Origin: Amphibalanus amphitrite
Lineage: Eukaryota > Arthropoda > Thecostraca > Balanomorpha > Balanidae
Direction of reading: 5' to 3'
NCBI RefSeq assembly: GCF_019059575.1
Contig: NW_024882025.1
Span: 248,001-312,000 of the forward strand
DNA length: 64,000 nt
In this document: piece by piece, positions 10,276-64,000 of the stretch
How positions within the stretch are numbered: position 1 is the stretch's first letter
Layout: every line of letters starts with the position of its first letter
The notes under the pieces: generated by a model
What the model saw: only the letters and a program-made list of their open reading frames with translations
Told to the model about the DNA's origin: nothing
Databases searched by the model: none
Translations under genes and position numbers: made by a program

Positions 10276-11336
10276 TTAACCCTCGCCGGACCTATTGGTT
10301 TTCTACATACATACGCGCCGACCGAGGGGGGGGGGGCAACTAAGACCCACCCTCGCCGTTTCACCCCTGGTGGAGCTAGCGCGTCGCGGAAAAACGAGCG
10401 TGTGCGCCGTTACGAGATGCAGAGAGTGATATCCGATTTTATGGTCCTAGGTCAACCGGTGACCTCTGAGGTCAGGTCAAGTGCCCCAAGGTACGGTTCC
10501 GCTTTTGTGAATTACTTCGCAAAAAACGGCCGCAGAGCCGCGACTGTGGCAGCATCGTGTTTGCCTCGCTCAGGCGCGTCGAATGATATACATTTTGTTT
10601 GGGTGAGGTCAACTTAGGGTGTTAACCTTGGGTCACGGTCAGGTCAGAGCCCCCAGGTCACGAAATTAGTCGAAGGAGGTTATGTCGCATATCATTCGAT
10701 TCGGCAGGTCTTTCGAGTCCATTGGTGGCTTTCTCGACTCGCTAGCTCAATTTGATCGGGAGTTATTGACGAAAAACTAATATGACCCTAATGACGTCAT
10801 AAATGACGTCACGCAAGGTAAACATTGCATAAGTGACGCATCGAACCTTACAAGGAGTACATGAAATCACGATTCTGTGTGCTTGAAATTGTAGGAGATC
10901 GTTCCCGGCGCCAGAATAGCAGTTTTCATTTTCGACATTGACTTATAATGGTGAGGTCATGAACTCATTTTCGTGCACGAAAATGACCTGACCTCATATG
11001 ACCTTTAGGAAAAATATGAGATTTACAAGTTGTGAGACTCCTAATGGATACTTGGTCCTGCATTTTTGATTTCCCTTTGAAAAATTCTCTGGCAGTGAGG
11101 GCGTTGCGAAGTTGCGACATCTGAAGACCGTGCAGAGGCTCACTTATGATGTCATAGGTCAGTGACCTGACCTGACCCGAAAATATAGTTGATGTCAAAA
11201 GATCCAACTTGAATCAACGGTCAGGTATGCCAAGTTTCAGCTCTCTATCGCCGGCGCGTTCGGAGCTATCGCGAGAAAAACCTATGGGGGGGGGGGGGAG
11301 CGGCACCCGCCCCACCCCCTCGGCCGGCGAGGGGTA
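10276..11336. mobile_element. TTAA-flanked non-autonomous element 1 (piggyBac-like by target site)
   Basis: The left end reads TTAACCCTCGCCGG (10276) and the right end CCGGCGAGGGGTAA (ending 11336), a near-perfect inverted repeat with TTAA, or GTAA on the right, at the borders. Just inside are long G and C runs (G12 near 10327, G13 near 11286). The interior is rich in TGACCT/AGGTCA phrases and has no transposase frame. It starts one base after the target duplication of the TRIM, so two insertions abut. TTAA targets are typical of piggyBac, but the assignment rests on the target site alone. Confidence 0.65.
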
Positions 11337-12084
11337 ACGTCATTAACGAACTTGACATTGACCTGGAGCTTTGAACATATCTTTCGACCCACAGAATGTA
11401 TTTTTTTCAACCAGTTTTGTTAAATTTTATGCATCCTGTTAACCTCTGGAACGCATTACATAATTATTATCACTTCAGTACATGCAGGCATTCCTTTGAC
11501 GTTGGCCTCTGACCTTGTGACTTGACCTGAGTTCAAAGGTTTTACGTTGTACTAAACCGTCTTGTTAGGGCCATTGTTTGGTACTGCTTTTTGGTGTGAT
11601 TTTTATGCACGAAGTTAGACGAGTGCATGGCAAAAATGTCCCCTGCCGGGACCGGATCATCGGGCTTACTCCCGGGTTTAATCGGGGCTAAAAGCGAACA
11701 TGGTCCCACTCCCTGAGGCCGGCATTAAATCAATTAGTCAACCAATACGTTTCAACGGATGCTATAGCTCACCCGTCTGTCAAACCATATTCAGCAAGCT
11801 TTTGCATTAACTTCGAAGACGGTAGCTCAGTTTAAGGACATACTGTTCTAATCAATGCTTTGAGATAATCAAGAAACTCGGAAAGCAAAAACAAAACATT
11901 GCTGCAAGTTGTAAGTCTTCCAAATTCCAACAAGGTTTGCATGCATGACTAATATCTACCCGTATCTGTGGGTGGGCTTAGAACGTTTCATTCTATGATG
12001 GCCAGTTCAGGGCCATTGGATGTGTTATAGCTACACCTCAGGGTTGATGCGGCCAGCCCCTATCACCGTCAACCGTGTGCCGTT
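11337..12084. other. no gene seen
   Basis: Sequence between two mobile elements, with scattered AGGTCA-like phrases near 11500. No exon or bounded repeat was recognised. Confidence 0.25.
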
Positions 12085-12116
12085 AATTAGGGTAAGGTGC
12101 CTAATTAGCAGCCCCC

Positions 12117-13023
12117 CTAACCCTCGCCGGCACAGGGGGCGGGGGTTGATGCAACCCCCCCCCCCTAAGGTTTTTCGCGAATAACTCGCGTAAAAAGGCG
12201 GCCGATCGCGACGAAACTTTCAGTACCCTCGCATCGATCAATTTTACACCTACCCTGAACATTTCATGACCCTGACCCAAATGACCTTTGACCTGTGACC
12301 TCTTTTCCGAGACCATGTTTGGCGGGAATCGCGATTCGGCGTATGTCGGCTCGCATTAGCCGCGCGTTTGCAAGCTTTTCGTGATTTCAAACGTTCAAAC
12401 ATGTGACTTGATGTTGCTCCCATACATTAGGGTGGGTGTCAAGGTCACCTGAAGGTCAGGTCAGGTCATTGACCTTTGGTGACCTCGGGTGACCTCGGTT
12501 CACTTTTTCGAGTTTTACATGTTTCAAGGCTAGGTTTTGGAGCTGAATTCGAATTTAGCAACTATTTCAACATATAAGAAGTAGTTTTGGTGCCTTCGTA
12601 ACATGTTACGAAGCTGTCAGAGGCGGTTGACACGTATTACGAATACCCGTCACAACCCCTACCGGTTGACCTGACCTGACCTGACTCGACCTGGTCTAAA
12701 TGCTTAAAGACATCATCTCTGATCAAAACTAACACGATATTCGTCATCAGCACCCCGGAAAACCACATAGCAGCCACACTTTACGACTTTCTAACAGGTC
12801 CCGATTTTCCCAGTTTTCGGGTCATTGACCTGACCTGGAAGGTCACCCGATGCCTAGGACCTTTAAATTGGATATCATCGGCTTCCTCTCGTAACGGGCA
12901 GCACGCTCGTTTTTTCCGCGAAGCTCTAGCTCGATCAGGGGCCTAACGCGAGGGGGGGGGGTCGTACCCCCCCCCCCTTGTGCCGTCGAAGGACGCAAAA
13001 TGGCCTGTGCCGGCGAGGGTTAA
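12117..13023. mobile_element. TTAA-flanked non-autonomous element 2
   Basis: The left end reads CTAACCCTCGCCGGCACAGG (12117) and the right end CCTGTGCCGGCGAGGGTTAA (ending 13023). They are exact inverted repeats except for the first base. Subterminal G/C runs occur at both sides (G5-C10 near 12139-12166; G9 then C11 near 12952-12978). The interior carries many TGACCT/AGGTCA repeats, such as aaggtcaggtcaggtcattg near 12450. There is no coding capacity. Its ends closely match element 1, so both belong to one subfamily. Confidence 0.7.
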
Positions 13024-13103
13024 TTTGAACCATCATTGCTCACGCTGTATGGGTGCCACTGTATTACTGGCTTGATTTTCGGAGAGATCGTTCATTTTTT
13101 CTG

Positions 13104-14318
13104 TTAACCCGGCACCGCCTGGGCTATTTCCGTACCCACGACAGCTTGGGGGGGTCGGATCCGACCCCCCCCCCCTGTTATCTCGAGAACCAATGGTCGT
13201 ATCGAGCCCGGCGAGGCGGCGTTCGAAAGGTCTCTACGAGACCTTCCTAAAGCACTCTTAAGATTTTAAGATTGAGGTCAACTTTCGGGTCAAGGTCAGG
13301 TCAAAGGTCAAATTCAGGGGTTTTGCATGATTAGGCTTACGGACAGCGGAATCGATAGCTGCTGCTCGAAACTCACCATAAATGACCTCAAAGGCCTAGT
13401 GAAGGTACCATGTGCGTATAGGGGTCATACTAAGTACGGGTCAAGGTCAGGTCAGGTCACGAAAGGTCACGGTTTTCAATTTCTGCTACATGGGCGTGCG
13501 ACACATGTTTTATGGCTTATTTTTCACGCCGAATCCGATGGTAATGGTTATATGTGACCCCAAGTCACTGTGCTGGTGATAAGTGTGCATTGAAAGCATA
13601 AAAAATCGTTTATACTATACGAGGGCTGAGAAAAAAGGTCAATTTTTTAACTTTTTATTTTTGACATAAAAATGCATTTTTCTAGACGAGCTTTGTCCCA
13701 GGAATCTAGTGGTGCCATTTGTTTTCACATGCGATGTTCAGAAGTGCCTCTAATTCACGAAAATGCTTATGACGTCACCATGCCCTATGCATGTTGGAGC
13801 TATTTTTTACAATTTGGGGGTCAAAAATCAAGATAGAAAGTTGAAGTTTGGGGCATCTAATGTTCTAATAGAGCTCTATAACATATAGTCCGGTTTTTTG
13901 GAAATTCCCAAAATTTTGGATTTTATAAGCTGTTTTGCAATAAATATAGTTTTTTGAATTTTGAGGGGTGAAAAACGCATTTTATGGAAAATCCGAGATA
14001 GCCATTTTAAAGAACTCGTTGAACTGCGTCTTTTCATGTCCTTAATTTGCAATTTGCTTTAAACCCTGATTTTTGGCGATTTTGTAAACATTTACCACTT
14101 TTTGACTAAAAACGCCATGTAGTTACATCACTAAAATCAATATATCTCAAAAAAATTTGGAAATTTTTTCTTGAAAATTGCACAGGAGACGTCAAATTGA
14201 TGGGGGAGAAGGTATGCCAAGTTTCAAGTAGATAGCGAAAGTGGTTCATGAGTTATTCAAGAAAAACGGAGGGGGGGGGGTCGGATCCGACCCCCCCCCC
14301 CAGGCGGTCGCGGGTTAA
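13104..14318. mobile_element. TTAA-flanked non-autonomous element 3
   Basis: The left end is TTAACCCGGCACCGCCTGG (13104) and the right end CCAGGCGGTCGCGGGTTAA (ending 14318). These match as inverted repeats at 17 of 19 positions and have TTAA at both borders. Each end carries a subterminal palindrome in which a G run, tcggatccga and a C run would form a strong hairpin (near 13147-13176 and 14271-14300). The 1.2-kb interior has nuclear-receptor-like half-sites near 13270-13460 and no open transposase frame. Confidence 0.75.
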
Positions 14319-18659: not shown

Positions 18660-18915
18660 TGCAAAAGGCACTAAAAGCGAAATGGCAGCATTTTTGGACC
18701 GTGCGGAGCCCCACTTATGACGTCATTACGTCACAAGTCAGTGACCGAACCTGACCTGACCTGAAAATGCCTTTGGAGTCACAGGCTATTAGACACGGCT
18801 TTATTTTAAAAAATGTCAGGAATGCCAACTTTCAGCGCCCAATCTCTACCGCGTCTGAGCAATTGCGAGAAAACCGTCGTTGGTGGCACCACCCTCCCTC
18901 AGCCTGAAAGAGTTG
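18660..18915. mobile_element. relic of a TTAA-family element
   Basis: This block resembles the right part of element 1 (11100-11330). It has the same order of 'gaccgtgc.gag.c.cacttatga.gtcat', a cluster of TGACCTGACCTGACC, and 'atgccaa.tttcagc.c.c.atc' followed by a GCGAGAAAA phrase. Neither the TTAA border nor the G-run hairpin is intact, so it is a decayed fragment. Confidence 0.5.
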
Positions 18916-25877: not shown

Positions 25878-28048
25878 CACTGGCGGTCGCAGCCGCTCGC
25901 AAAAGGGGGGGCCAAAGTCACACTCGCGGGACATAACATTTATCAGTCACCGGGGGGGGGGGGGGGGGGGGGGGGTGATCGGCTAATTTTTTTACGTCCA
26001 CGAGGCGCTGCGCAGTTGGCATTACCTACTTATGCTTCATCCACCTCATTCTTGCGTGAAATCTTTATGCTCAATTTAAGGCAAAAGCACCAGTTCCATT
26101 TCCCGTCCCACGGTGTTTCCACCGGTCGGGCCACTGCACCATGGCGACGGATCGGTGTAGCATATACTGGAAGGTCGGGCACGCGGATTCATGACCTTAC
26201 CACAATAAAACAATTCGGAAAAGTACGGATACCTCTTGCTTTGAACAAGCATGTGAAACCCAGAGATCATTTTCAGACTATGACATTTACCCATATAGCT
26301 GTTTGGCGGCGGGAGAGAATAGGTACACCGACCTCTGGAGACCCCCGGCCCCACAGGTTCCTGGTTTTCAAAATTGGCATCTGAGGGCCGCGCACGACTC
26401 GCGCGGGGCCTCGCAACGGCTCTATTGGGGCTCACTCAACCTGCCTTATAGTCCTACTGCTAAAAAGACTGGCCCTGAGCCCTAAGGACTTCATCAGTCT
26501 CTGCCAACCCCAGGACCCACACCGGCTCATGGGGTCCCGACGTCGAAATATGAGGGAATCTGCGCGGGACCATCAGGACGTAAAGTAATCTCGATCAGGA
26601 CCAACGTACGGCTGTGCAGGAGTCTGCGTGAGCCCTGTGATCTTCAGAAGCCCACCCATGTGTTTTCACTTAGAGGCCAGTTTAGGGCTCTCAGAGACCA
26701 GTACAGGGCCTGCAAACTGCAAAGGCCAGTAGTTTGAGACCATCAGAGACCGAGTTGGGCTCTCGGAGGCTTATGTGGGTCCTACTCATTACAGGCCAAC
26801 ATGGGGCCCTCAGAGGTCAGCGTGGGGCCCTAAAAGACCGGAATGAGCCGTCGTTGGAACCCAGAGGCCAGCAGAGGGCCCTCAAAGGCCAAGATGAGCC
26901 CTCCTCAGAGGCCAATGCAGGCCCTTAGAGGCCAGCATCGGGTCTTCAGCAGCCAATGCGGGGCCCTCATTGGCACCTAAATGTTCGTCTTGGGACACCA
27001 GAGACAGCAATAAGGCCACTAGAGACCGGTGTGAGACCCTCAGACGCCGGTTGGGGCCCCTGAGGCCGGTAAGGGGTCCTCATAGGTCAGATGTGGGGCC
27101 TCAGAGGTCGATGTGGGCTCTTAGCGGTCAACGTGGGCGCTTGACCGCCACTGAAGTTCCCTCAGAGGTCAGTGTTGGACGCTCAAAGACCGGTGTGGGC
27201 GTGTTTTTTTAGCCTCGTGACGATCGAATCAGGGCCAGGGTCCCATACACCTATGGGGGCCCATCGGTTGCTTGAGGGGGGGGGGCAAACAGAGGCGGAT
27301 CCAGCTCAGAGGTTTGGGGGGGGGGCAAACCATAAAAATTTATCGATTCTTTCCATGCATCGTCCATAGGCGTAATGTTAAAATCATGCCGTTTGGGGGG
27401 GGGGGGGGGCAAATGCCCATTTTGCCCCCCCCTGGATCCGCCACTGGGGGCAAATGATATGATGGCCCCCTTTATGTGCCTTGGGAGGGCATGGCCCTGA
27501 TGCCCCCCGCGACCGCCACTGTGTACACATTACATACAGGCCTCTGAAATTACATACTAGCTAATGCAAACTCTATGCAGGCCCCGGAGATCCCACGCTA
27601 ATCCTTAAGAAACCAAGCCGGCATACGGCGTCACCACCGGGCTTCTGAGGTGCACAGCACCAACCCATGAGGTCTTACTTTAGTGTCTTAGAGCCACGCT
27701 CCTTTGGCAGGGCCCACCCGCCACTGCCGAAGAGGTCTCATGCCAGCCATTGCTGGGCCTACGAGAGCCTCAAGTAAACCCACGCTGATATTCCATGTAA
27801 GATGCGGCCATACTCGTGAACCGGTGCCAGCGACGCTGACCGCCAAATTGACAGAATACGAAACTGAGCCCACTCATGAGTGAAATTTACGTCCTTTGAT
27901 GGCGCAAGAAATAAAATGAAACATACAAAAAGCTTTTCTAGGACTTTTGTTCGATCTGAAAGGTGGGGCCAAAAGATAGTATGGCCCCACCTTTCAGCAC
28001 CAAAGGGGGGGCCATGGCCCCCGTGGCCCCCCCCTGGGACCGCCAGTG
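25878..28048. mobile_element. hAT-like element, 2.17 kb, 8-bp target duplication accgcaag
   Basis: The left end is CACTGGCGGTCGCAG (25878) and the right end CTGGGACCGCCAGTG (ending 28048), inverted repeats matching at 14 of 15 positions. The flanks 25870-25877 and 28049-28056 are both accgcaag, a perfect 8-bp target duplication as made by hAT transposases. G and C runs lie inside each end (25905-25976 and 27998-28034). The interior includes a degenerate 'cagaggccagtgtggggcc' repeat (about 26640-27215) and a nested MITE at 27290-27446. No transposase frame is visible. Confidence 0.8.
27290..27446. mobile_element. nested hAT-like MITE, 157 bp, target duplication ggggcaaa
   Basis: It begins CAGAGGCGGATCCAG (27290) and ends CTGGATCCGCCACTG (27446), with G and C runs just inside. 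The 8 bp on each side (27282-27289 and 27447-27454) are both ggggcaaa. It is inserted in the larger hAT-like element 25878-28048. Confidence 0.8.
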
Positions 28049-28238
28049 ACCGCAAGCAGCTTTTAAGGCTAATTTCCCAGCCGCCCAGGAGTGGGGTAAC
28101 GTTGTAGCTCCTTCGAGGCTGGTGGTCGACGGGAAGAGTAATAAGGGACTTCATTTATAACTAGCTATGAGTTCGTCAGAGTCCTGTGTGTTCTTGGCAA
28201 GGATTATGAATCAACTGATTTTGTCCTCAGATAATTGA

Positions 28239-29799: not shown

Positions 29800-30180
29800 A
29801 CGGGTCACGACACCGCCGGAGCTGCTGGCTGGCGTCGCCGGGCGGGCGGAGGACCTGAGCCATATATCATCGACTGCACGCACACCGACTGTGGTAATCT
29901 ATCAGGGGCCTAATCAGACTCTGAGTCAGTCCGGCGGGGTGAGTAGGTACCGCAGCTGCAAAACTGCCGGCCGGCTCCCGCGCCCGACCTGCCCCCGAAC
30001 TGTGACGTCATCGGGCTGCACATATCGACCGGGAGCGCTGCTGGCCATTTTTGGCTGCCATCGGCCGCCATTTTGGTGTCATTTTTACTGCAACGGAGGA
30101 GTCGTTGCTGTGAGTCGGCTCGTCGGTTGTCGGTTAGTCCGTCGGCAGAGACGGTGCTTACGGTGCTTACATCGTTAGAT
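29800..30180. promoter_or_regulatory. GC-rich putative promoter region with a GCCGCCATTTTGG box
   Basis: A CpG-rich block contains ggccatttttggctgccat followed by GGCCGCCATTTTGG near 30062-30075. The latter resembles the YY1/Pho-type element (GCCGCCATNTT) often found at metazoan start sites. No adjoining coding exon could be identified, so direction and target gene are unknown. Confidence 0.3.
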
Positions 30181-31440
30181 CGTTACTTACATCGTTGCAA
30201 CATGCTTCCACCAAAACGGAAGTTGCCTTCACCTCTATTCAGTACCTCCCCATATATAAGTGAAATTTGCGTGGCCTTACATTGTTCAAAAAGTCGCAGT
30301 ATTTCTCCTTCTGAGCTAGTGAGGGATTTTTTTTTCTACTCCGCCACCCATGATCAGGTGACCAGGAGTGCCCCCGCCCTCAAACCCAACGACTAGCAGA
30401 ACCTTACGTTAACACCAGATAAAATAAACTGATAAGTCGCGGCACTCCCTGCTAAGAAAGGAAATAAAACTAAAAAAAGCAAATGAGAGAAGGGGTAGCG
30501 GGTTTAGGCGGAGACAAGAACAGAATGCGAAAGTAGCCACTGCTGAAACCAGACAGATGACTGTTCTCTACTACGATACCGAAAGCAACTTTCACTCAGA
30601 AGGGCATGCATTCATCTAGAGTAGAAAAAACAATCGCTCATTCACACGTCATGCAAACATCGTTAGGCGGCACGGGCGGACATCGATAGCAGCGCCTCTA
30701 TCGGTCACTAGGGAAAGCTGGGCTGTAGGCGACGAAATACCGGCTGAGTTGTCACAAGTTAAATAGGTTTATAAACATCCGTCTTGTGAAAAAGTTGAAC
30801 TTTTGCCTTCAATATTTCTACAGGCAATTTTAGAAGTGCCTTCACATATATTACAAAACCGTTTAAATTATTTTATTCATTTCAAGCCTTCCCTATTGTT
30901 CTTGATGATGCGGGAACTATTTCTAATTAGTGTTTCTAGCTAAGTAAAAAAACATATTGTGCAAACGATGAAAAAAGCATAAATGGAAGATTTTAAATGC
31001 AATTTTCTGTAACAAATAATGGTAAATTCTCTACACATCAAGGAAAAGGTGCATGCTAACTGATAATTTAAAGTTCTTGGGGCCAGTTGGTTTCTTCTTT
31101 TCTTACGTCGCCCCAATGGCCGCGAATACACTTGTGATAACGCCTATCGTACGTGGGGAATCGCTCTGGTCAAAAATTCGGCCGGTCAATGCTGAGGGCA
31201 GAAAAGCCTTTCCAGCTAAGCGAAGCTTGTTGCTGGGATAATTACATTAATACAATAACCGAAGGACAGTGGGTGTCTGAGCCTTCAGCTATTAGAAGCA
31301 GACATCGTTCGCTGATCTTCTTACTGCAGCTGACAGAAGGAGTAAAGAGGGAAGGTGGTGACGGCTGGTGACAGTTGATGACGGCTGAAAACTGATGACG
31401 TGCAGCCGCTCCAGCAGATCACACACCAGTTATAACGTCC
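30181..31440. other. no gene seen
   Basis: AT-rich sequence. The phrase 'ctaagcgaagcttgttgc' near 31215 recurs near 34241, on the other side of the Transib-like element, and is unexplained. Confidence 0.3.
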
Positions 31441-32069
31441 CATCGCACTATGGTTGGAAACGGCCTCACGGATGGCCGTGGGCAATTTCGGAATATATGT
31501 ATATTTGGGGTGTCATTCTGTTGGAAATTGATGAAATGTTTTGAATTGGGCAGAAAAAATTATTTAGTTGCGCATTTAGTCTCCATTATTGTACGTGGAA
31601 TCGGGAGTTTCTGATAGTGGCTTTTTTAGTGCGCCGTCAAAGGTTTAAACAACCGCGCTGGTGATAGCATGTGGAGTACCTCCATGACGTTGTAAAACTG
31701 GATTATTATATATCAAAATAATCCTTGTTATGTTGGCTATCGAGTGGAGTGACTCTTTTTCCCATGCGTGTTCAAAATCAGGAACGGCATTGCATTCTGT
31801 TTGCAGTGTCACCACAGCAATATTTGCAAAATTACGTTTATGTTTCATTGGACATACAAAAAGTTCTCCATCGACCTCCATTGAGCTTTTTGGCAGAATA
31901 AGTCTCTGTTCAATTCTGCGTAAGGGGAACGTAAAAGCAGACTGCGCACTTGTGCGCAAAATCGTCCGTGAAGCTTCATCACCCGAGGCGTACCTACCCG
32001 TCGCTTCGTTAGCACCAGGTCGGCTCGTCAGTCTTGCAATCGCTTATCCTTATAAATGATGGTAAGAAG

Positions 32070-32353
32070 CAGGGTTGCGGAGTCGTGGTGGCGCCAAATC
32101 CGACTCCGACTACGACTCCGACTCCTGACTCGTTGCCATGACTCCGGCCGACTCTGTCTCCGACTCCGGACCCCTGCCAGTGTTTCGGAGTCGTGATGGA
32201 GCTGTTCCGATTCGGACCGACTCCGACTTCCACTGCGGGCTCCTGACCGACCCCGACTCAGACTCCGACTCCTGGCTCGTTGCCACGACTCTGGGCGACT
32301 CTGACTCTGACTCCGACTCTGACTCCGACTCTGACTTCGACTCCGCACCCCTC
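32070..32353. mobile_element. hAT-like MITE with GACTCC arrays, target duplication gtaagaag
   Basis: It begins CAGGGTTGCGGAGTC (32070) and ends GACTCCGCACCCCTC (32353). Most of the 284 bp is a degenerate GACTCC/GACTCT array. The flanks 32062-32069 and 32354-32361 are both gtaagaag, a perfect 8-bp duplication. It is nested in the Transib-like element and related in design, not in sequence, to the GGCTCC elements. Asp-Ser and Ser-Glu frames here are spurious. Confidence 0.8.
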
Positions 32354-32744
32354 GTAAGAAGTAACTGCTCGCCGCTGCACCTGGAGTATGGATATCGTGC
32401 AAACGTGTGTGGATATCCTGGAGTATGGATATGGATATCCACCGACAGAGCAGACATACAGACATGCTGTAAACGCCATTACACTGTAAATACCATGGCA
32501 AATCAAATGGCTATCTATGGTTTTTGATCGTCGTTCTACATTTCCCAAAATCTTGAACTGAATGTTGGCAATTTCTCGTGACTACTTCACGACCATGATG
32601 CATGCATTTCTGAAATTGATCTGTTTTCAACCAGCCACGTACTCGTATGATAAAATGAATGTCACCATCGTGTTCTACGCCCAAAAGTACCCATAAAACA
32701 TGTGTCATGCATGGGCTGCGAATAGGTACCAGTTTTAATTTTCG

Positions 32745-33218
32745 GGGTTATGTGCTTACCTGATTGACCTGACTTTGACCCTGGCCAGTGGCCTATGTTT
32801 GACTGACCCCTACATTGATCTCACACTCTTTTAGCACTTATATGAAGGGTTGTGACAGTTGTGACAGTTGTGACAGATTGTTTAGGACCAACTGATGACT
32901 GAATTTATTTAGGACCAACTGATGAGTGATGACGATATAATCGAAACGCGAAACGCGAGGCACCGATTGCGAGGTTCTACAGTCCGTGCTACTGAAAGCC
33001 CGATTTCAAGTGTTTGACCTGACCTTGACCCGACCTGTGACCTCGAAATTCAACTTTAAAGTATTCATGTGAATCGTCTCGTCGCGTTCTTCTTTCGTTT
33101 GCCGCGCCTCGTGCGTTTCGCTGCGCCTATTTGTTCGCGAGTTATCGGCTGGGGGCGTTGAACGCCCCCCCCCCCGGCAACGGTGGATGGGGAAATACCC
33201 CAGCAACTGCCGGGTTAA
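32745..33218. mobile_element. partial TTAA-family element (right end only)
   Basis: The right border reads GCAACTGCCGGGTTAA (ending 33218), preceded by a subterminal hairpin (gggggcgttgaacgccccc, 33152-33170). TGACCT clusters lie at 32763-32790 and 33013-33050. The left border was not found, so the element is truncated or its left end has diverged; the start given is approximate. A 9-bp tandem (gttgtgaca) lies near 32857-32880. Confidence 0.5.
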
Positions 33219-41383: not shown

Positions 41384-43592
41384 GGTTCGTCGGAAGGTCA
41401 TCTCAGGCTCAAAAGAAACGGTATATACCATTCGAAAGCTGACGGCGAGCTGAATCCAAAATGTATTTTCTATCAAAATCCATCGATGGCCTTTTTTGAA
41501 AATTGCGTTTTTGTAAAAACTTAATAATCTTTTATTCAACGGACTGTCCCGGACATTTTTGAAAACATAAACATGTATTTTTGAGTTCCAGTGAAAGCTG
41601 AACGTCAAAAGAACAACATTTAGCGAAGCAATATTTCCAAACATTAATATGCGTCTCCCACAGCCGACAATAAGGCGCAATCACACAGCTCAGTGTCACG
41701 ATGGACCAAATTCAGCCACACAGAAGCGTGGAATGACCCTTATCGACTCGCAGACCCGGCGCGCTCGGCCCGCCTGACCGGCCACGGAAAGAACGTTCGG
41801 CTCTTGTTCTACTAAACAAATGTCATATTTGTCACTTTAACTGTCCACATCGCTATTAAAGTTATTCAGGATACCTGTGAAGAAAATTCATTGTTCTGCT
41901 CAATTTACAACATGTTTTGATTTACATTTTTCTTATGCATGTTTTGTTCCATCCAGCTGCGATCAGTGCCCGGGCAGGGGAACTGAGCGGGGTTTCACTG
42001 TCAGAGGCTGTACTGGTGACAGCTGCTCGGCCGTGCGACCGGTCAAAGGTTACCCTGCCCCGCCGGGCGCTACCCCCACTCCACCCGAGCTGAGGCCGGT
42101 GCAACCTCTGACATTTCAGCGCGGCCAATTTTCCTTATATGGGCATGATACCAAGCTCAATTGAGCAAAGTAGACATGAACAAATGCAAATTAATGCATG
42201 ATGTGAAGATGACAGAACAATGAATTTTCTTCACAGGTATCCTGAATAACTTTAATAGCGATGTGGACAGCTAAACTGACAAATATGACATTTGTTTAGT
42301 AGAACGAGAGCCGAACGTTCTTTCCGTGGCCGGTCAGGCGGGCCGAGAGCGCCGGGTCTGCGAGTCGATAAGGGTCATTTCACGCTTCTGTGTGGCTGAC
42401 TTTGGTCCATCGTGGCACTGAGCTGTGTGATTGCGCCTTATTTTCGGCTGTGGGAGACGCATATTAACACGCGCAGTGGAAGGGGGGGGGCGGATTTCGC
42501 CCACCCCTCCTGTTTTTCGCCAATAACTCGCGCCGCAAGCATAATATCAATGTGAAATTTCGGCTACCTGTCCAGAATTGAATTGCGGATCTTCTCGTGC
42601 AAGAAGTAAGAAAATCGGTTCACAACTTTTCTGGTAGTAGCGGTGTAAAGTCAAACATCCTGCCGCCGCGGCGGCGCGGCGGCGCGGCGGCCGGCGCTAG
42701 CCGTTACGCGCCGCCTGAATAGTAGACTGTGCCGGGGCGGGACGGTTCCGTCTTTACATCGCGCTCCTTACCGCTGATTATATCAGATTCGCGTCAAATT
42801 CGGTGAGAAGACTGAGAAATGTACAGGCAATCATATGGTCAAAGAATTTTGAAAATCGCCCGGTAACAACTTGAGTTATGAGTGTGTAAACACAAAATTG
42901 TGATTGCCGCGTTTCCCGCGTCGGCCGATGCCGCCTCAGCCGGCGACATCTTACCCTTCGCAGGCTTCTAACTGCCATATTTATTGTTGGATTATCTAGA
43001 AATTCACCATACATACTCAAAAATGTTTGTTCTTTCGTATAGTGAAAGATTTAAAAAAATCGGCCGGTAACTTTTTGAGTTATCGGCGTGTAAACGCAAA
43101 AAAGTCGCTAATATGGCAGATTTGACCACATTTGACCTCATTTGACCTTGAAGATATTGACCTAGGGTCATGAAATTCACACACAACAGAGTTCCCCGTG
43201 GCCCCCACCTACCCTCCAAATTTCGTCTTTCTAGCTCCAGTGGGAGCTGAGATCTTAGGGGGGGGCGACATCCGCCCCCCCCCCTTCCACTGGGCGTAGT
43301 GCTCGCAACCCTTCCACTGCGCGTGTTAATGTTTCGAAATATTGCTTCGCTAAATATTGTTCTTTTGGCGTTCAGCTTTCACTGGAACTAAAAAAATACA
43401 TGTTAATGTTTTCAAGAATGTCCGGGACAGCCCGTTGAATAAAAGATTATTAAGTTTTTACAAAAACGCAATTTTCAAAAAAGGCCATCGATCGATTTTG
43501 ATAAAAATTACATTTTTGGATTCAGCTCACCGTCAGCTTTCGAATGGTATATATCGTTTCTTTTGAGCCTGAGATGACCTTCCGACGAACCG
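41384..43592. mobile_element. foldback element with long inverted arms
   Basis: The left arm runs from GGTTCGTCGGAAGGTCATCT (41384) to about 41905. Its reverse complement forms the right arm, from about 42213 to 43592, once the 862-bp net insertion of the TTAA element (42464-43329) is removed. The arms are about 520 bp and differ at scattered positions. The 300-bp centre is unique. No target duplication is evident at the outer ends, so the class is not assigned. Short frames in the two arms mirror one another and are not genes. Confidence 0.75.
42464..43329. mobile_element. TTAA-flanked non-autonomous element 5, with natural empty site
   Basis: Both ends carry TTAACACGCGCAGTGGAAG (42464) and its exact inverse (ending 43329), with TTAA at each border. 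Subterminal G-run/C-run hairpins follow (42480-42509 and 43258-43284). The interior has a GCGGC-rich block (42662-42700) and TTTGACCT clusters (43119-43160). It sits in the right arm of the foldback element. The left arm (around 41645) retains the uninterrupted sequence with a single TTAA, proving a TTAA duplication. Confidence 0.85.
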
Positions 43593-44668: not shown

Positions 44669-44797
44669 GTACGGCTCGGCTCGTTCTGGCCCATCCCTGC
44701 CATTTCCGTCCGTATCGTCCCACTCCTGCAGCCCGGGTCCGATCGGTCAGTTTCGACACACCCTCCGCCAGGTTGACGGCTCATTCGGACTGGACAG

Positions 44798-47700
44798 TAG
44801 GGTGTATCGTCGAATTTTGATTTTTTTTAATCGTCTTCACTACTAAATTTTATTGGTCCCTGGCATGTTTGAAGCCGTAGGATACCAATTAAAAAAATCT
44901 GGGACGAAAACCTAGCCTGCTGCGAGCGGTTGAACGGAAGCCTGTCGGGACGGCGCCAGGCGTTGAAGTCTCCCCGTTAGTTACGCGCACACTAGCACCA
45001 CGCGGCGGCCGGCGCCGTGCCGCCGCGTTCCCGGTCAGCCGTGTTTTAGCGTTCACTGACGGGTCGAGGTGATTATTCTAAGCTTTCCTAAGAAGCTTTC
45101 TGCCCCGCAGCTCATTATTGAGCAAGAATATCGCACAAACTGCATAGAACATTGGCATGCAGGTTGTCGACACATATGGAGAAGGGGATGTTTTGGTTAA
45201 TGCCTCCTTTAATAGGAAGAGATTGTGGAAGAACAACACATTTCTTTTGGAAATTACTCATCCTCCTTCTTCCTACGTGCCTGCTTTAGTAATCGAAGTA
45301 CCCCTATTGACTCTACGTTCTTGATTCGGCTGTGGATTTTATGCATGGAATTCCGCTATATTATATTTTCTCGCTCAATGTCCCCTGAGCTATATTGAGG
45401 CGTCACGGGACAGCAATGCTCAGCACACAACTGCAGAGAAAAAGTCAATGTGGTCATGCGTTTTGTATGCCAAAATGTGTGAGCCTTGGCGTGTACCAGC
45501 AGCCGTTGTCACCATTGTAATTTTCACGACTTTATCTTTATAAGGATGCAATTGCCCACTTCCCAGTTCCCAGACTGGGTTTGGAGATATAGTTTTACAG
45601 AAACATTTAGGAATGTCTGTAATGTAAGTTAAAAGCTAATACCGAAAGGAATCCACATATTTTCGAATTTCCTGTTTGCTGTATTGCTTAGTAAATGCCA
45701 GACGTCATGATGGCATGGTTGCGATTGATGGTATGCCGGATGGCCAGGGTACGAACTCACGGTAAGTCAGCTTGGCCGGCAGGCATCAACAGGCACAATA
45801 GTCTTACACTGATATCGTCACCCTCAGTTATTCGTCACCATTCAGCAGCAGGCCCAGAGCTTCGGGCTTTGAACCGTAAGGTACAGGTGTAGGAGCGAGA
45901 CATTGCGCCGATTCGAAGGGCTGGAAGGCAGGGATGCGGAGCCGGAGCCGGAGTCGGAGCCGGAGCCGCCGGAGCCGGCATATTTTGCCCGGAGCCGGAG
46001 CCGGAGCCGGAGCCGTGAAACAATATAGCCCGGAGCCGGAGCCGGAGCCGGAGCCGCCAAAAAAGGGGGCGACTCCGGCTCCTTTTTATTTTTTGAAGAG
46101 GAAAAAATAATTGACCTAGTTCGGTTTGACAGTACAAGGCAGTACAACACATGGTGAGTAGGTATACGTCATGGGCCATCAAGTGAATGAAAAAGCCGAA
46201 TGTCCCCAGTATCCCACAGTACGCAATCAACTTCCTGTGTGCTCCCCCCGCCCTCCCCCCCCCCCACGTCTACTGCATCCCCAGAACATGAGGACCGGTC
46301 ATCAGGTGACGGCCATTGTTTTGAAGCCAGTGCACTAGTGCAGTGGACTGCGACTCCCAGCACCGTCTCTTCCCCCCTCACCCCCCCCCCCCAATGCAGC
46401 CGAGACGGGTGTCAGCTTACGATGGTTCAGAGAACTCCGATTCGCGGCGACTGCGTTTTCAATGCCATCGCTTCCTAGTCCTTTGTTCTGCCAGTTCTCT
46501 CCGAGGTGCGTTTGCGCGGGGACGCAGTGAGCCGGTCATGGCAAAGAGTAACGCGTATAACCCATCCAATTTTTCTTCCACCCGTATTTAATTGATTGCA
46601 TAGGGGATGTACTGAGTCGGAGCCGGAGCCGCCGGAGCCGGAGCCGGAGCCGCCGGAGCCGGACCATTTTACTCGGAGCCGGAGCCGGAGCCGGAGCCGC
46701 CATAGCATTTCACCCGGAGCCGGAGTCGGAGCCGGAGCCGATTTTTTCTCCGGAGCCGGAGCCGGAGCCGGAGCCGTCTGAAATTTCCACGGCTCCGCAT
46801 CCCTGCAGTGGAAGGGCAGCATCGCGGGCGCTGGAATGCGCCTGAGCGGCTGAGACCATCCCATTGGGACGGGGGTGTTCTGGGTGCACTCAGCCGCTCA
46901 TGCTGGGAAATGCATCCAATGGAGCTCTCCATTCGAATGATTAGGGTGACCTTTAGTCTAGAACAAGGAAGGATGACTGTTGGCTGGTCCCGAGGATAGA
47001 TACAAAGGACAGGTAATGACATCATATAATGAATCGGAGACGGCCCCGGCCCGATCCTCTGATAGAGGCTCATCAACACGTATCTCGTTGTGGACCATTT
47101 CGTTTTCCTCCACCGTGGTTTTTGCACCGACCTCAACGGGTTGGAAGATTACGATGTTCAGAAACCATTAAGGTCGTAATTGTATATTCGTTGAGTTAGG
47201 TTAGCCTTTCCATTCCATGAAGACTACTTTATAATTATTGGATGATAGGATGAGATTTTCACTGTGTTGAACCTGTCCTACCTGCTCAGTGAACGAATAT
47301 ACAACGAATATACAATTACGATCTTAATGGTTTCTGAACATCGTTACCTTCCAACCCGTTGAGGTCGGTGCAAAAACTACGGTGGAGGAAAACGAAATGG
47401 TCCACAACGAGATACGTGTTGATGAACCTCTATCAGAGGATCGGGCCGGGGCCGTCTCCGATTCATTATATGATGTCATTACCTGTCCTTTGTATCTATC
47501 CTAGGGACCAGTCAACAGTCATCCTTCCTTGTTCTAGACTAAAGGTCACCCTAATCATTCGAATGGAGAGCTCCATTGGATGCATTTCCCAGCATGAGCG
47601 GCTGAGTGCACCCAGAACACCCCCGTCCCAATGGGATGGTCTCAGCCGCTCAGGCGCATTCCAGCCCCCGCGATGCTGCCCTTCCAGCCCTTCGAATCGG

Positions 47701-48812
47701 CGCAATGTCTCGCTCCTACACCTGTACCTTACGGTTCAAAGCCCGAAGCTCTGGGCTTGTTGCTGAATGGTGACGAATAACTGAGGGTGACGATATCAGT
47801 GTAAGACTATTGTGCCTGTTGATGCCTGCCGGCCAAGCTGACTTACCGTGAGTTCGTACCCTGGCCATCCGGCATACCATCAATCGCAACCATGCCATCA
47901 TGACGTCTGGCATTTACTAAGCAATACAGCAAACAGGAAATTCGAAAATATGTGGATTCCTTTCGGTATTCGCTTTAACTTACATTACAGACATTCCCAA
48001 ATGTTTCTGTAAAACTATAATATCTCCAAACCCAGTCTGGGAACTAGGAAGTGGGAAATTGCATCCTTATAAAGATAAAGTCGTGAAAATTACAATGGTG
48101 ACAACGGCTGCTGGTACACACCAAGGCTCACACATTTTGGCATACAAAACGCATGGCCACATTGACTTTTTCTCTGCGGCTGTGTGCTGAGCATTGCTGT
48201 CCCGTGACGCCTCAATATAGCTCAGGGGACATTGAGCGAGAAAATATAATATAACGGAATTCCATGCATAAAATCCACAGCCGAATCAAGAACGTAGAGT
48301 CAATAGGGGTACTTTGATTACTAAAGCAGGCACGTAGGAAGAAGGAGGATGAGTAATTTCCAAAAGAAATGTGTTGTTCTTCCACAATCTCTTCCTACTA
48401 AAGGAGGCATTAACCAAAACATCCCCTTCTCCATATGTGCCGACAACCTGCATGTCAATGTTCTATGCAGTTTGTGCGATATTCTTGCTCAATAATGAGC
48501 TGCGGGGCAGAAAGCTTCTTAGGAAAGCTTAGAATAATCACCTCGACCCGTCAGTGAACGCTAAAACACGGCTGACCGGGAACGCGGCGGCACGGCGCCA
48601 GCCGCCGCGTGGTGCTAGTGTGCGCGTAACTAACGGGGAGACTTCAACGCCTGGCGCCGTCCCGACAGGTTTCCGTTCAACCGCTCGCAGCAGGCTAGGT
48701 TTTCGTCCCAGATTTTTTTAATTGGTATCCTACGGCTTCAAACATGCCAGGGACCAATAAAATTTAGTAGTGAAGACGATTAAAAAAAATCAAAATTCGA
48801 CGATACACCCTA
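44798..48812. mobile_element. hAT-like foldback element, 4.0 kb, target duplication ctggacag
   Basis: The ends are TAGGGTGTATCGTCGAATTT (44798) and its exact inverse (ending 48812). The flanks 44790-44797 and 48813-48820 are both ctggacag, a perfect 8-bp duplication. Almost the whole element is two inverted arms of about 1.5 kb, left to about 47195 and right from about 47300, around a 100-bp centre. They differ by few bases, so the element is young or has been homogenised. The left arm carries a later insertion (45929-46805). Mirror-image frames in the two arms are not genes, and no transposase is visible. Confidence 0.85.
45929..46805. mobile_element. hAT-like element with GGAGCC arrays, inserted in the foldback arm
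   Basis: It begins CAGGGATGCGGAGCCGG (45929) and ends CCACGGCTCCGCATCCCTG (46805). Runs of GGAGCC lie inside both ends. The target ctggaagg (45921-45928) recurs after the element as gtggaagg (46808-46815), with two extra bases. The opposite foldback arm (around 47690) keeps the empty site. It is homologous to 14723-15215. The interior includes C runs near 46255-46265 and 46380-46392. Confidence 0.85.
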
Positions 48813-48884
48813 CTGGACAGGTCTGTCCGCCGGCCGTCTCGGGGGCGGTCCCAGGTCCACTACCAACCGCCTCCCAGCCGGCGG

Positions 48885-51499: not shown

Positions 51500-52691
51500 T
51501 TAACCTTCCAGGCGGTGGGGGGGGCATTTTTTTGCCCCCCTTTAGTTATTTCGATATATCTCGAGAACCGCTGCGCCGATCGTCACCAAACTTTCAGTAC
51601 CCTCCCGGGAGCAGCTAGCGCACATGGTGACCAAAAATTTTTCCAAAGGCTATGATAGGTTGGCCGCTAATGACGTCAGAGTGACGTCATTTTTGCCGTT
51701 TTCGACCCAAAAAAAGGTTTCGCGGGAAGAGCTGTCAGGCCTACAGCTTTAAAGATACAGAAAAATGTTTCAACATAAAAGGTGTGGAATTAAAAGGGCT
51801 ACAAAACTGCTATTTCGGTTTTTCGAATTTTTTGGATTTTGACCCCAAAAAATCAAAAAATATATTTTTTGAATATAATAGCCAAAAAATTCCAAAAGTT
51901 TTTTGAATTTCGAAAAAATCGGAATATATGTGATAGCCCCTACCGCCTTCTATCCACATACCAAATTTGAGATCTATACCTCTTTTTTTGGCCAAGTTAT
52001 AGCGAAAAAAAACTGTTCAAAATTGATGACGTCAAATTTTGAAACTCAATTTTTAGCAATTCTAGACCTCGTAGCGCAAAACAAAGACCACCATTAGACT
52101 CCCCGTGACGAGCTGCATCGAATCGATACCCATTTTATGCAAAAATATCAACTTTGAAATTTGACCTTTTTTGACCTGACCTTGACCTGACCTCCACCAA
52201 AAAGTGACCTAAACCGTATCTGATGGTCTTATAACCAACACCATTGAGTTGGAAATGAGAAACTGGCCATGAAACATGCATCGCATAACCCTAGTAAAGT
52301 TGGGCTCATGTGGTGACCCTTGGTGACCTTTGGTGACCTGACCTGTGACCTGACCTGGTATGACCAGTGACCTCTAATAGCAACATATGTACTAGACAAC
52401 TGACGCCTTATCGCTGATTTTCGACAAAATGCGTTTTACTCGGTGTTATAGCGCTTTCCCTAGAAGCCCCGTGAACGGTTAAACATTTTATCTTTGACCT
52501 GACCTGTGACGTCATCGGTGACCCCGAGGTCAATGAAATTTGGTTTCCTTCGACAAATTTGACAGGGCTATCGAACGCCGTTTGAATTTTCCGGATCCGT
52601 CCAGTAGTTTCGGAGATACGGGGGGGGCAAAAAAGTGCCCCCCCCCCACCGCGCGGAAGGTGGCTGGTAGGCCCACCGCCTGCCGGGTTAA
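51500..52691. mobile_element. TTAA-flanked non-autonomous element 6
   Basis: The left end is TTAACCTTCCAGGCGGTGGG (51500) and the right end CCCACCGCCTGCCGGGTTAA (ending 52691), inverse copies at 17 of 20 positions with TTAA at both borders. Subterminal G-run/loop/C-run hairpins occur at both ends (51515-51541 and 52620-52649). The block 'aactttcagtaccctc' near 51590 also occurs in element 2. TGACCT/AGGTCA arrays fill 52160-52390. There is no transposase. Confidence 0.8.
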
Positions 52692-55093: not shown

Positions 55094-58928
<3,835 letters not shown>

Positions 58929-61277: not shown

Positions 61278-64000
61278 ATGGCTCCGGGGCCCACACCAGA
61301 AGTCTATGTGCCTCCAGCCAAACCGTCACTGGAGAATCTCACAAAGGACTTTGGCAAAATTAGCAAAACTCAGAACAAGGTATGACAGTGATGTTGCATA
61401 TTCATTTGCCTTAGTTTTAAATAATTGCTTCTTTATTCTGAACTTTTTTCTTCAGTTATGTATTTAGTGATCTATGCTAGAAACTAGCAGACTTTTTGTA
61501 GTACCTAATGATTAAAATGAATATATAGTGCTAGTGTAAATGAACTAAAGGTATGCCAACTACCCATTTTGTGGAAAAGATATAGCACATGTTGCGTTGC
61601 TCCTCTGCCCGAGAGTCGAGACAGGTCTCCTGTGCCACTTCCCAGCGGCAGACCCACATGATACCTCCAACCGAGGAGTCCCCGTCGCCACGTCCCCGCC
61701 AAACGGGCGTCCAAAGTCTCCGAGCGATCACTTGGCGGTAGTACATACACTACTTTGTTGTGCATCTGTTGACGCTCTGTTTTGCGTTTTCCAGGTGTTG
61801 CGTGCTCTGTCGCAGCCTCACATAGAGGCCTATAACGATGTCGTGGAGAGGGGCCTCACCATGTCGCTGGCCGCCATACCACCGGTGCAGTTTGCCCTCC
61901 CGGACAACACCAAGGTCGCTCTGCGCGTGCTGGTGAGGCGGCGGTGTGAACTGTGGCAGAGCATAGCTGGTGTCAGGCATCTGCCTCTGTAACACTTTGC
62001 GATTAATTGAACAACAAATTCTGAGAAATTGAAACAAAATCCATTTTTATTGAAGCAAAATAGAATCCATCGATTATCTGCGGTCAATGTATTTTAGTTA
62101 TGACCTTTAGGTATTTTGTCTAGGCTAACCAGAGCTCTTTTTCAGTCAAGCACCATCAGTTGTTTTTGCAATCACGATAAGAAACATTCTCAAATCAAAT
62201 CGTTCTGATCTGCCCAACTCCTCCTCGTTTCTTTCGACCAGCCCGTCTCCGTGACCCCCCCCCCCCCCCCCCCATTTCAGGGTGGCAGGATCACCGCCCC
62301 GCGTGTACCAATGTCTAACGTGGGCGCCACAGACGCCCGTGTGTTCCCGAGCGAGGCTCGCACAGGACTGAGGGACTACACCGGGCAGCTGGTGGTGCAC
62401 TTTGCCGTGTCGGTGAACGGGGCCACGTGCATCGCCATGGACCGATCCCTGGGAGAGGTGCCCGTCATGGTCGGCGTGAGTTGGACGGAGGGGTGGGAGG
62501 GGAGGGGTGTCACCGGAAGGGCTTAGAACAGGGAAATGAAGTGGGAAAGGGCACAGTATTACGAAAAAGATAAGCTCTGTGATCTAGAACGGTGGTTCAG
62601 TGTGTGAGGACATGACAGCATGTTGCGGGTATTTTTATTAGATTGTTGGCCTCTCACTCTCACTCTGTCACTCCTTCTCACTCATTCTCTGATTCTAGCC
62701 TCCCACTCCTCTCCCTCACTCTCCCTCGCTCTAGCTCGCCCTCTCACTATATGTATTCAATTGTTTCTGACACCCCACCCTGCCTCGTGTCCCTCACCAG
62801 TCGAAGTTGTGCCACCTCCACGGCCTGTCGCCGGCCGAGCTGGTCCGACGTGGAGAGACGGACTCGGAGTTCGGCGGCTACTTCATCATCCGCGGACAGG
62901 AGCGGCTGCTCAGACTTCAGGTCAGCTTACGATAGATAGGGAATAGTGATACTTAATCTAGTTATTTTATTTAGACCCGGCTCGACGTGCACAGTGATGG
63001 CTAAACTTTGTGGTGTAGCAGGATAGGGCGTTGAGTGTGTCAATATTGACGAGCAGTTAGGTGCACTCGACTGATGGCTTTTTTCCAGTCGCCATGTGCG
63101 GATATTTTACTTTTCGGTTTGTGTTTGTGTGCGTATTTTTTATGTCTGAATGGTGCCAATGTGCAGACTCGACAGTTGAATACGTATTTGTGTGTGCATC
63201 ATCTGCCATGCCACTGGATTTTTTCTTTTTTCTTTTTGTTCTGGCCTTATCTGTGTTTGCCGAACCCTCATGTTTCCTACCGGACGTGTATCCACCTGTG
63301 CTCTAAAGTATCTGTGTCTGTCTCTTGTCCGTACTCTCCCCTCAATCTGACCCGTGCTCGCCCCCCCCCCTCAGGTGGCCACCCGGCGCAACTACCCGGT
63401 CTGCCTGACCCGCACCTCGTACAAGAGCTACGGCAGTCTGTTCACCGAACACGCCGTGCAGATGCGCTGCATGACCGACGACCACTCGCTGGCGGTGAGA
63501 GGGGGAATAAAGTGGAAGGGAGTTCGGGAGAGAGGGATATACATTATACATATATGGTAGGTAGATGAGATTAACCGCGGGAAAGGGGAGGGGTGTGATA
63601 ATAGTCGGACTGGGTTAAGGGTTTGCAGGACGCTTGGACCATTGATTATCCACGCAGGGAATATAAAAAGGTCATGGTGATGTTTGGCGCTAGGATGACT
63701 TCTAGGCTATTACATGGCGTGATTGATTGCTGATTTCTTTTCGCGTTACCGTAACGTGGCTTTTTGTTTCCAGGTAGTTATAACAGAGGGTTTGTGCCCA
63801 ACAGAAACACTCCTGTTAAGAATCGTGTTTTCTATTGAAAAACAGGCCTGAATTCCTACATAATTTGGATATCGGACGATGGACGTCCTGAATGTGCCTT
63901 CGTTTATGAGTCCTTGTGTGTTGGTGAAACACTGATTTGATACACCCCACTCTCTTGCGCCGCCTCCAGATGAACGTGATGCATTTTCTGAGCAACGGCA
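61278..64000 (+). CDS. POLR1B: DNA-directed RNA polymerase I subunit RPA2 (second-largest subunit), first six exons, cut by the window end
   Basis: This subunit forms part of the polymerase I active centre that makes rRNA precursor in the nucleolus. The exons are 61278-61379, 61795-61932, 62281-62475, 62801-62920, 63375-63494 and 63970-64000 (open). All introns are phase 0 and about 235 codons are seen. The start MAPGPTPEVYVPP with NLTKDFG matches the family's short N-terminus. The family order then follows: SQPHIEAYNDVVERGL, NVGATDARVFPSEARTG, LGEVPVMVG then SKLCHLHGLSPAEL, GGYFIIRGQERLLRL, RRNYPVCLTR, and MNVMHFLSNG. FGGYFIIRGQER is the beta-subunit motif, and the RRNYP context separates RPA2 from the polymerase II and III homologues. 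About 80% of the protein lies outside the window. Confidence 0.93.

Follow-up and report, generated by a model that had tools for sequence, protein, structure and literature searches.

We identified six TTAA-associated elements, here named E1 to E6, in a 64-kb stretch of Amphibalanus amphitrite DNA (contig NW_024882025.1, positions 248,001 to 312,000 of the forward strand; hereafter the window, numbered from its first letter). In our assessment it is highly probable that they are non-autonomous DNA transposons of the piggyBac kind, similar to miniature inverted-repeat transposable elements (MITEs), and that the palindrome of facing G and C runs near their ends is a dyad site for a dimer of the cysteine-rich domain (CRD) of a transposase. 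The analysis covered the window and the literature, and the evidence for the elements is their combined layout together with an empty site, not TTAA and inverted repeats alone. The strand given below is that on which an element reads from its short end to its long end.

10276 to 11337, minus strand: E1, bordered by TTAA at left and GTAA at right, long end at left
12117 to 13023, plus strand: E2, bordered by CTAA at left and TTAA at right, short end at left
13104 to 14318, minus strand: E3, bordered by TTAA at left and right, with the long end at left
32664 to 33218, plus strand: E4, right (long) end only, 32664 being the furthest match to another element
42464 to 43329, plus strand: E5, bordered by TTAA at left and right, lying within an inverted duplication (right arm)
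51500 to 52691, plus strand: E6, TTAA on both sides, short end at left

The first-pass annotation of the window had described five bounded copies and one right end; all six are present where it placed them, with two borders corrected, and its coordinates hold for E2 to E6, E1 ending at 11337 instead of 11336. It had mentioned neither the long/short asymmetry of the ends nor the AGGTCA arrays described below. The elements are 0.87-1.2 kb in size, and the window's list of open reading frames contains none of 130 or more amino acids inside them. Exact TTAA borders on both sides are seen in three of the five bounded copies (E3, E5 and E6), and E1 and E2 each have one border with a single substitution (GTAA at 11334-11337 and CTAA at 12117-12120, respectively). 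Short terminal inverted repeats (TIRs) in the range of the piggyBac superfamily (~12-19 bp) are present, E4 having one end; they show 0-3 mismatches in 14 bp in E3, E5 and E6, were judged by eye in E1 and E2, and in E5 form a perfect repeat of 22 bp that includes the TTAA and one flanking base. A TTAA with a matching 14-bp inverted repeat is no more frequent in the window than the same arrangement with other palindromic tetramers, and our elements account for three of the ten TTAA-bounded pairs with at most three mismatches.

Each two-ended element has two unlike ends. Read inward, the short end comprises the TTAA, a motif of ~14 bp and the palindrome, whereas the long end comprises the TTAA, the motif, a spacer of ~10 bp, a second copy of the motif and then the palindrome. 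The palindromes, given without strand, are as follows.

10323 to 10355: E1 long-end palindrome (CGAGGG.GGG / CCC.CCCTCG), weak and imperfect, folding z -0.26, the symmetric score showing no clear dyad
11286 to 11319: E1 short-end palindrome, imperfect, folding z -0.52
12135 to 12165: E2 short-end G/C palindrome, loop TTGATGCAA
12952 to 12977: E2 long-end G/C palindrome
13148 to 13175: E3 long-end G/C palindrome, loop TCGGATCCGA
14271 to 14301: E3 short-end G/C palindrome, loop TCGGATCCGA
33151 to 33175: E4 long-end G/C palindrome, loop CGTTGAACG
42482 to 42507: E5 short-end palindrome, C arm CCCACCCC
43258 to 43284: E5 long-end G/C palindrome
51517 to 51540: E6 short-end G/C palindrome, loop CATTTTTTTG
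52620 to 52647: E6 long-end G/C palindrome

The inner motif copies of the long ends are these.

10312 to 10328, plus strand: E1 inner copy, displaced 32 bp, 14/17 matches
12976 to 12992, minus strand: E2 inner copy, 27 bp inward of the tip motif at 13003-13019
13135 to 13151, plus strand: E3 inner copy, displaced 27 bp
43282 to 43298, minus strand: E5 inner copy, displaced 27 bp
52644 to 52660, minus strand: E6 inner copy, displaced 27 bp

The palindrome is held at two distances from the TTAA. Its centre lies 30 (after the border correction), 30, 29.5, 28 and 26.5 bp in at the short ends of E1, E2, E3, E5 and E6, and 62, 56, 52.5, 55, 56 and 55.5 bp in at the long ends of E1 to E6; a symmetric score computed independently of the runs gives concordant centres for E2-E6 and is ambiguous for E1. 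The asymmetry of the ends of Trichoplusia ni piggyBac, a long-end palindrome standing ~28 bp further in and a duplicated motif, is thus reproduced in these elements. A 17-mer taken from the short tip recurs in the long end of its own element at an offset of 27, with 14/17 matches in E2 and E3 and 15/17 in E5 and E6, and in E1 with 14/17 at an offset of 32 (33 before the end was corrected). The long end of E6 matches itself somewhat better at an offset of 34 (12) than at 27 (11).

This layout is not attributable to chance, which we reject on a scan of TTAA sites for palindromes and on shuffles of the motif copies. Searching 233 TTAA sites in both directions for a nearby strict palindrome (at least five G, 3-12 bases, at least five C) returned nine site-directions: seven belong to the ends of the elements, an eighth arises because a TTAA slightly upstream of E2 lies within reach of its left palindrome, and the ninth, at 28063, is unrelated. 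Over the whole window, runs of at least six separated by at most 30 bases occur in eight rows as G..C versus none as C..G, six of the eight being element ends and the others lying at 27395 and 28005; with runs of five the figures are 15 versus two. In the 13 bases ahead of the G-run, same-element matches number 10 in E1 and E3 and 11 in E2, E5 and E6, values that were equalled or exceeded rarely in 4000 shuffles with the best of 36 offsets taken (81 reached at least 10 and six reached 11).

The motif copies further bear on how the elements have evolved. Matches within an element (14-15/17) exceed every match between elements (9-12/17), as they do in the 13-base version (10-11 versus at most 9), and hence the copies within an element have changed together. 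Such agreement within elements and divergence between them is what would be expected of elements that each follow a protein which reads DNA sequence. The longer blastn matches pair like ends, such as the left of E1 with the right of E2 (73% over 214) and the left of E3 with the right of E4 (67% over 207); as these join long ends to long and short ends to short, the elements have a common polarity and are probably related by descent from a common ancestor. The left end of E4 was sought in 30001-33150 and none was found there. At 18677-18893 lies a decayed sequence related to the right-hand portion of E1 (66% over 198, the match reaching 18873); beyond the match, at approximately the position of the E1 palindrome, stands GGTGGCACCACC (~18882-18893), by eye a dyad that is not homopolymeric.

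An empty site speaks directly to movement. E5 lies within an inverted duplication with arms at ~41384-41929 and 42182-43591, represented by four pieces that are 92-97% complementary, and its counterpart in the other arm is vacant.

41384 to 41929, minus strand: empty-site arm, with a lone TTAA at 41644-41647 at the point matching the position of E5 in the other arm

The flanks of E5, joined with a single TTAA, align with the left arm at 251 of 264 positions with one gap. This pair of sites could have arisen by insertion of E5 into one arm or by scarless loss of a copy from the other; in both cases the movement was TTAA-specific and seamless. The target duplication and seamless site typical of the piggyBac superfamily are accordingly seen at E5, the element to which the filled/empty comparison applied; the annotation had named TTAA borders that are not duplicated at empty sites as grounds for abandoning its proposal, and at E5 the duplication is present.

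The palindromes themselves have preserved symmetry while changing in sequence. When the three loop pairs next to the runs were scored in a single palindrome from each element, leaving out the left end of E1 as well as the other ends of E3, E5 and E6, 14/18 pairs were Watson-Crick; permuting the right halves gave a mean of 6.3, and 2/720 permutations reached 14. The figures are 13/15 (1/120) on removal of E1 and 15/20 (2/5040) on addition of the second palindrome of E2. The second loop pair is T-A, C-G, G-C or A-T depending on the element, and the differences between elements are thus compensatory. On this small sample, the covariation bears out the earlier observation that symmetry is kept while sequence varies, and the four loops quoted with it are all present.

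That observation had been accompanied by the proposal that the hairpin may be a cis structure recognized in transposition or DNA folding. On this view, the palindrome acts as an extruded hairpin or cruciform, recognized by its shape by the transposase or a host factor. Single-strand folding against shuffles that preserve dinucleotides, and hence the runs, gives z values from -0.26 to -3.33 over the 11 ends, with 6/11 at -2.5 or below; 9/11 fold at z of -1.4 or below, the exceptions being both ends of E1. Moreover, it has been proposed that PGBD5 is guided by the secondary structure, not the sequence, of piggyBac-like ends (PMC12324416). Against this, the palindromic repeat inside the piggyBac ends LE35 and RE63, which at bp 17-33 occupies a position matching that in our elements, is bound by a CRD dimer as a bent duplex whose minor groove narrows near bp 25 (PMC7351741). 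A weaker argument is that the element palindromes are all G..C and none C..G, though both would be expected to fold equally. We set aside a role of the hairpin alone on the duplex precedent and, to a lesser degree, on the polarity of the runs, and consider it distinctly improbable. The annotation thus stands in recognizing TTAA transposons with a terminal palindrome, which does not have to form a hairpin; because the piggyBac palindrome at the matching position is bound as duplex, we interpret the "hairpin" as a dyad binding site, and its position and symmetry point to a CRD site in a piggyBac-type end as its most likely identity.

A second alternative, that the runs are role-less microsatellite growth by slippage beside the inverted repeats, draws on the variation in run length among the ends (G 4-11 and C 3-13, read inward) and on G-runs in other repeats of the window that we take to be hAT-like. 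Slippage alone would neither place paired G and C runs around complementary closing pairs that differ by element nor hold the palindrome at two distances from the TTAA; in its pure form we set it aside on these two grounds as very unlikely. An origin from Kolobok, another superfamily that yields TTAA duplications, is extremely unlikely, as its termini follow a 5'-RR..YY-3' rule (PMC9587614) that none of the 11 ends, all starting CC or CA, obeys.

Several observations weigh against the piggyBac interpretation. No transposase was detected in the window, a tblastn search with one piggyBac protein giving a best E of 0.32. The piggyBac tip hallmark CC[C/T]T (PMC2872659) is present at 5/11 ends (both of E1, both of E2 and the left of E6), the others having CCCG (E3, E4 and the right of E6) or CACG (E5). 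The 27-bp step holds in 4/5 two-ended elements, E1 having 32, and the single end of E4 matches itself better at an offset of 26 (11/17) than at 27 (9/17). Weak palindromes occur at both ends of E1, and also at the left end of E5, where the C arm is CCCACCCC; it is the weakness of E1, the oldest-looking copy with its imperfect palindromes, that tells here. Compared with T. ni piggyBac, the elements have longer palindromes, set 1.5-5 bp deeper at the short ends, and this yardstick is a single element. Finally, since the elements are probably related, their shared spacing does not amount to six independent events.

Inside the elements, we observed arrays of AGGTCA/TGACC, listed here without strand.

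10450 to 11223: AGGTCA/TGACC array of E1
12267 to 12845: AGGTCA/TGACC array of E2
13276 to 13469: AGGTCA/TGACC array of E3
32765 to 33042: AGGTCA/TGACC array of E4
52162 to 52532: AGGTCA/TGACC array of E6

AGGTCA occurs 62 times in the 5,796 bp of the elements versus 51 times in the remaining 58,204 bp, and AGGTCAGGTCA 17 times versus once; E5 is poor in the word, with three copies and no overlapping pairs. Of 51 same-direction GGTCA neighbours at most 25 bp apart in the elements, 29 are spaced by 5 or 10 bp. In the alignment of E3 with E6, identity is 62/72 at GGTCA sites versus 576/1099 elsewhere, and no other pentamer among the 21 that occur at least eight times in E3 ranks above GGTCA. The gap is smaller for E1/E2 (53/79 versus 55%) and E3/E4 (44/60 versus 57%), and in E3/E1 and E2/E6 these sites do not really differ from the rest; because an alignment is drawn to repeated words, this conservation is no more than suggestive. 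The elements contain few classical spaced receptor sites (four DR1-like, one DR0 and two inverted with one spacer base), and outside them there are none. The arrays may be candidate inner binding sites, receptor-type sites or products of pentamer slippage. We regard as unlikely the more specific proposal that the elements represent a piggyBac lineage in which a G:C homopolymer dyad now serves as the CRD site, drifting in sequence with its symmetry and 27-bp two-module spacing held, and that the arrays, with their 5- and 10-bp spacing, are selected cis sites, either for inner transposase or host-factor binding or of the nuclear-receptor type and spread by the MITEs. The accessible open-licence texts on MITEs and AGGTCA include none on such elements, the sole match concerning Alu and microRNAs.

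A block of the form ATAACTCGCGAAC also follows the palindrome at each of the five short ends and at E4's long end; at the short ends it is succeeded by a sequence like GAAACTTTCAGTACC (E2 and E6) or GAAACTTGGCATACC (E1 and E3), and loosely so in E5. The strict block pattern had no match in IMG/VR and the G6..C6..block pattern none in a genome contig collection; the looser C6..ATAACTCG pattern recovered four viral stretches from IMG/VR. A loose TTAACC..G6..C6 pattern matched at least 120 IMG/VR stretches, by a rough estimate about the level of chance; among the 120 matches listed there was no TTAA-bounded pair (at most three mismatches per 14 bp) with a G/C palindrome, one (L027) had a single AGGTCAGGTCA and one (L043) a single block-like word.

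The window has other features of note. Repeats at 27292-28040, with ends like CAGAGGCGGATCCAG and CTGGATCCGCCACTG that are presumably hAT-like, have G or C runs near their ends, and G-run ends may hence be more widespread among the transposons of this genome. A second inverted duplication, of 4 kb, occupies 44790-48820 (three pieces, 98-99%), less than 8 kb from the one at 41384-43591. Its left arm holds an insert at 45929-46805, with ends CAGGGATGCGGAGCCG and CGGCTCCGCATCCCTG, assumed by us to be hAT-like, and arrays of the hexamer (CGGAGC)n inside both; the counterpart site in the right arm, near 47680, is uninterrupted. Hexamer arrays related to (CGGAGC)n recur at 14.75-15.2 kb and 32.1-32.35 kb. 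Two regions are exon-like: 55245-55880, with an ionotropic-receptor-type ligand-binding domain (Pfam PF10613, E 3.9e-07, ~55.6 kb), and 61597-61992, with a weak likeness to the RNA polymerase I subunit RPA2 (E 0.0012, ~61.8 kb).

We posit that these apparently gene-less elements would depend for their movement on a piggyBac-like transposase supplied in trans from another locus. The transposase core would grip the TTAA and the tip motif, and the G-run/C-run palindrome would serve as the site for the two C-terminal zinc-finger domains (the CRDs) of a transposase dimer, as does the palindrome of 17-19 bp in piggyBac. At the long end, the second module of motif and palindrome, 27 bp further in, might seat a second, inner dimer that would make the two-ended complex asymmetric; excision and insertion would both be seamless at the TTAA. 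The same module spacing and 27-bp step, despite the different palindrome sequence, suggest that the asymmetry is an old and selected property of the transpososome. The motif sets that match within elements, with their compensatory dyads, offer natural variants for testing how a zinc-finger dimer reads its site, and the AGGTCA arrays are an unexplained but testable cargo.

The elements resemble T. ni piggyBac (Ifp2) in the TTAA, the short tip motif, a palindrome at two distances and the 27-bp repeat of the motif at the long end, and differ from it in their tips (CCCT, CCTT, CCCG or CACG versus CCCT) and in having no transposase gene. The palindrome of T. ni piggyBac is TGCGT..ACGCA, in place of the G and C runs of the window elements. 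Its ends, analysed with the same script, have centres at 25 and 53, and the long-end motif is repeated at an offset of 27 with 10/12 matches; their lengths and palindrome position agree with the published account, in which the 17-bp insertion and duplicated segment of the long end are termed "a puzzling arrangement" and an addition of 5 bp to that end lowers activity by about half (PMC7351741). Inner or subterminal inverted repeats occur in some piggyBac-like elements, at both ends in certain cases, and in piggyBac lie 3 and 31 nt inside the TIRs (PMC12324416); complex TIRs with several internal repeats are described for piggyBac and PLE-wu (PMC8086355).

Among gene-less relatives, the mPok MITEs of Daphnia Pokey likewise have TTAA, inverted terminal repeats of 12 or 16 bp, a length of ~750 bp and repeats near their ends; their parent element is known, and the available portion of their description names no palindrome, hairpin or AGGTCA array (PMC3849761). 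The CMITEs of Acropora are similarly piggyBac-related TTAA MITEs whose TIRs vary by family while the inner sequence is kept, but unlike the window elements they are ~100 bp long with a conserved core of 75 bases (PMC2872659). The piggyBat element of Myotis shares a repeated core motif, an imperfect palindrome 3 bp on and asymmetric ends, with three modules at 44-bp spacing on one end and no such palindrome on the other in the account available (PMC11707139). G/C-run palindromes at TTAA MITEs were not found in the accessible open-licence literature, Repbase and subscription papers being outside its scope. The first-pass view that no described family has this layout does not survive the comparison: piggyBac has the TTAA, the motif, the asymmetric palindrome and the duplicated long-end segment (PMC7351741), and the layout is already known because its plan is that of LE35 and RE63. 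What seem to be new here are the G/C-run palindrome, the jointly diverging motif copies and the internal AGGTCA arrays.

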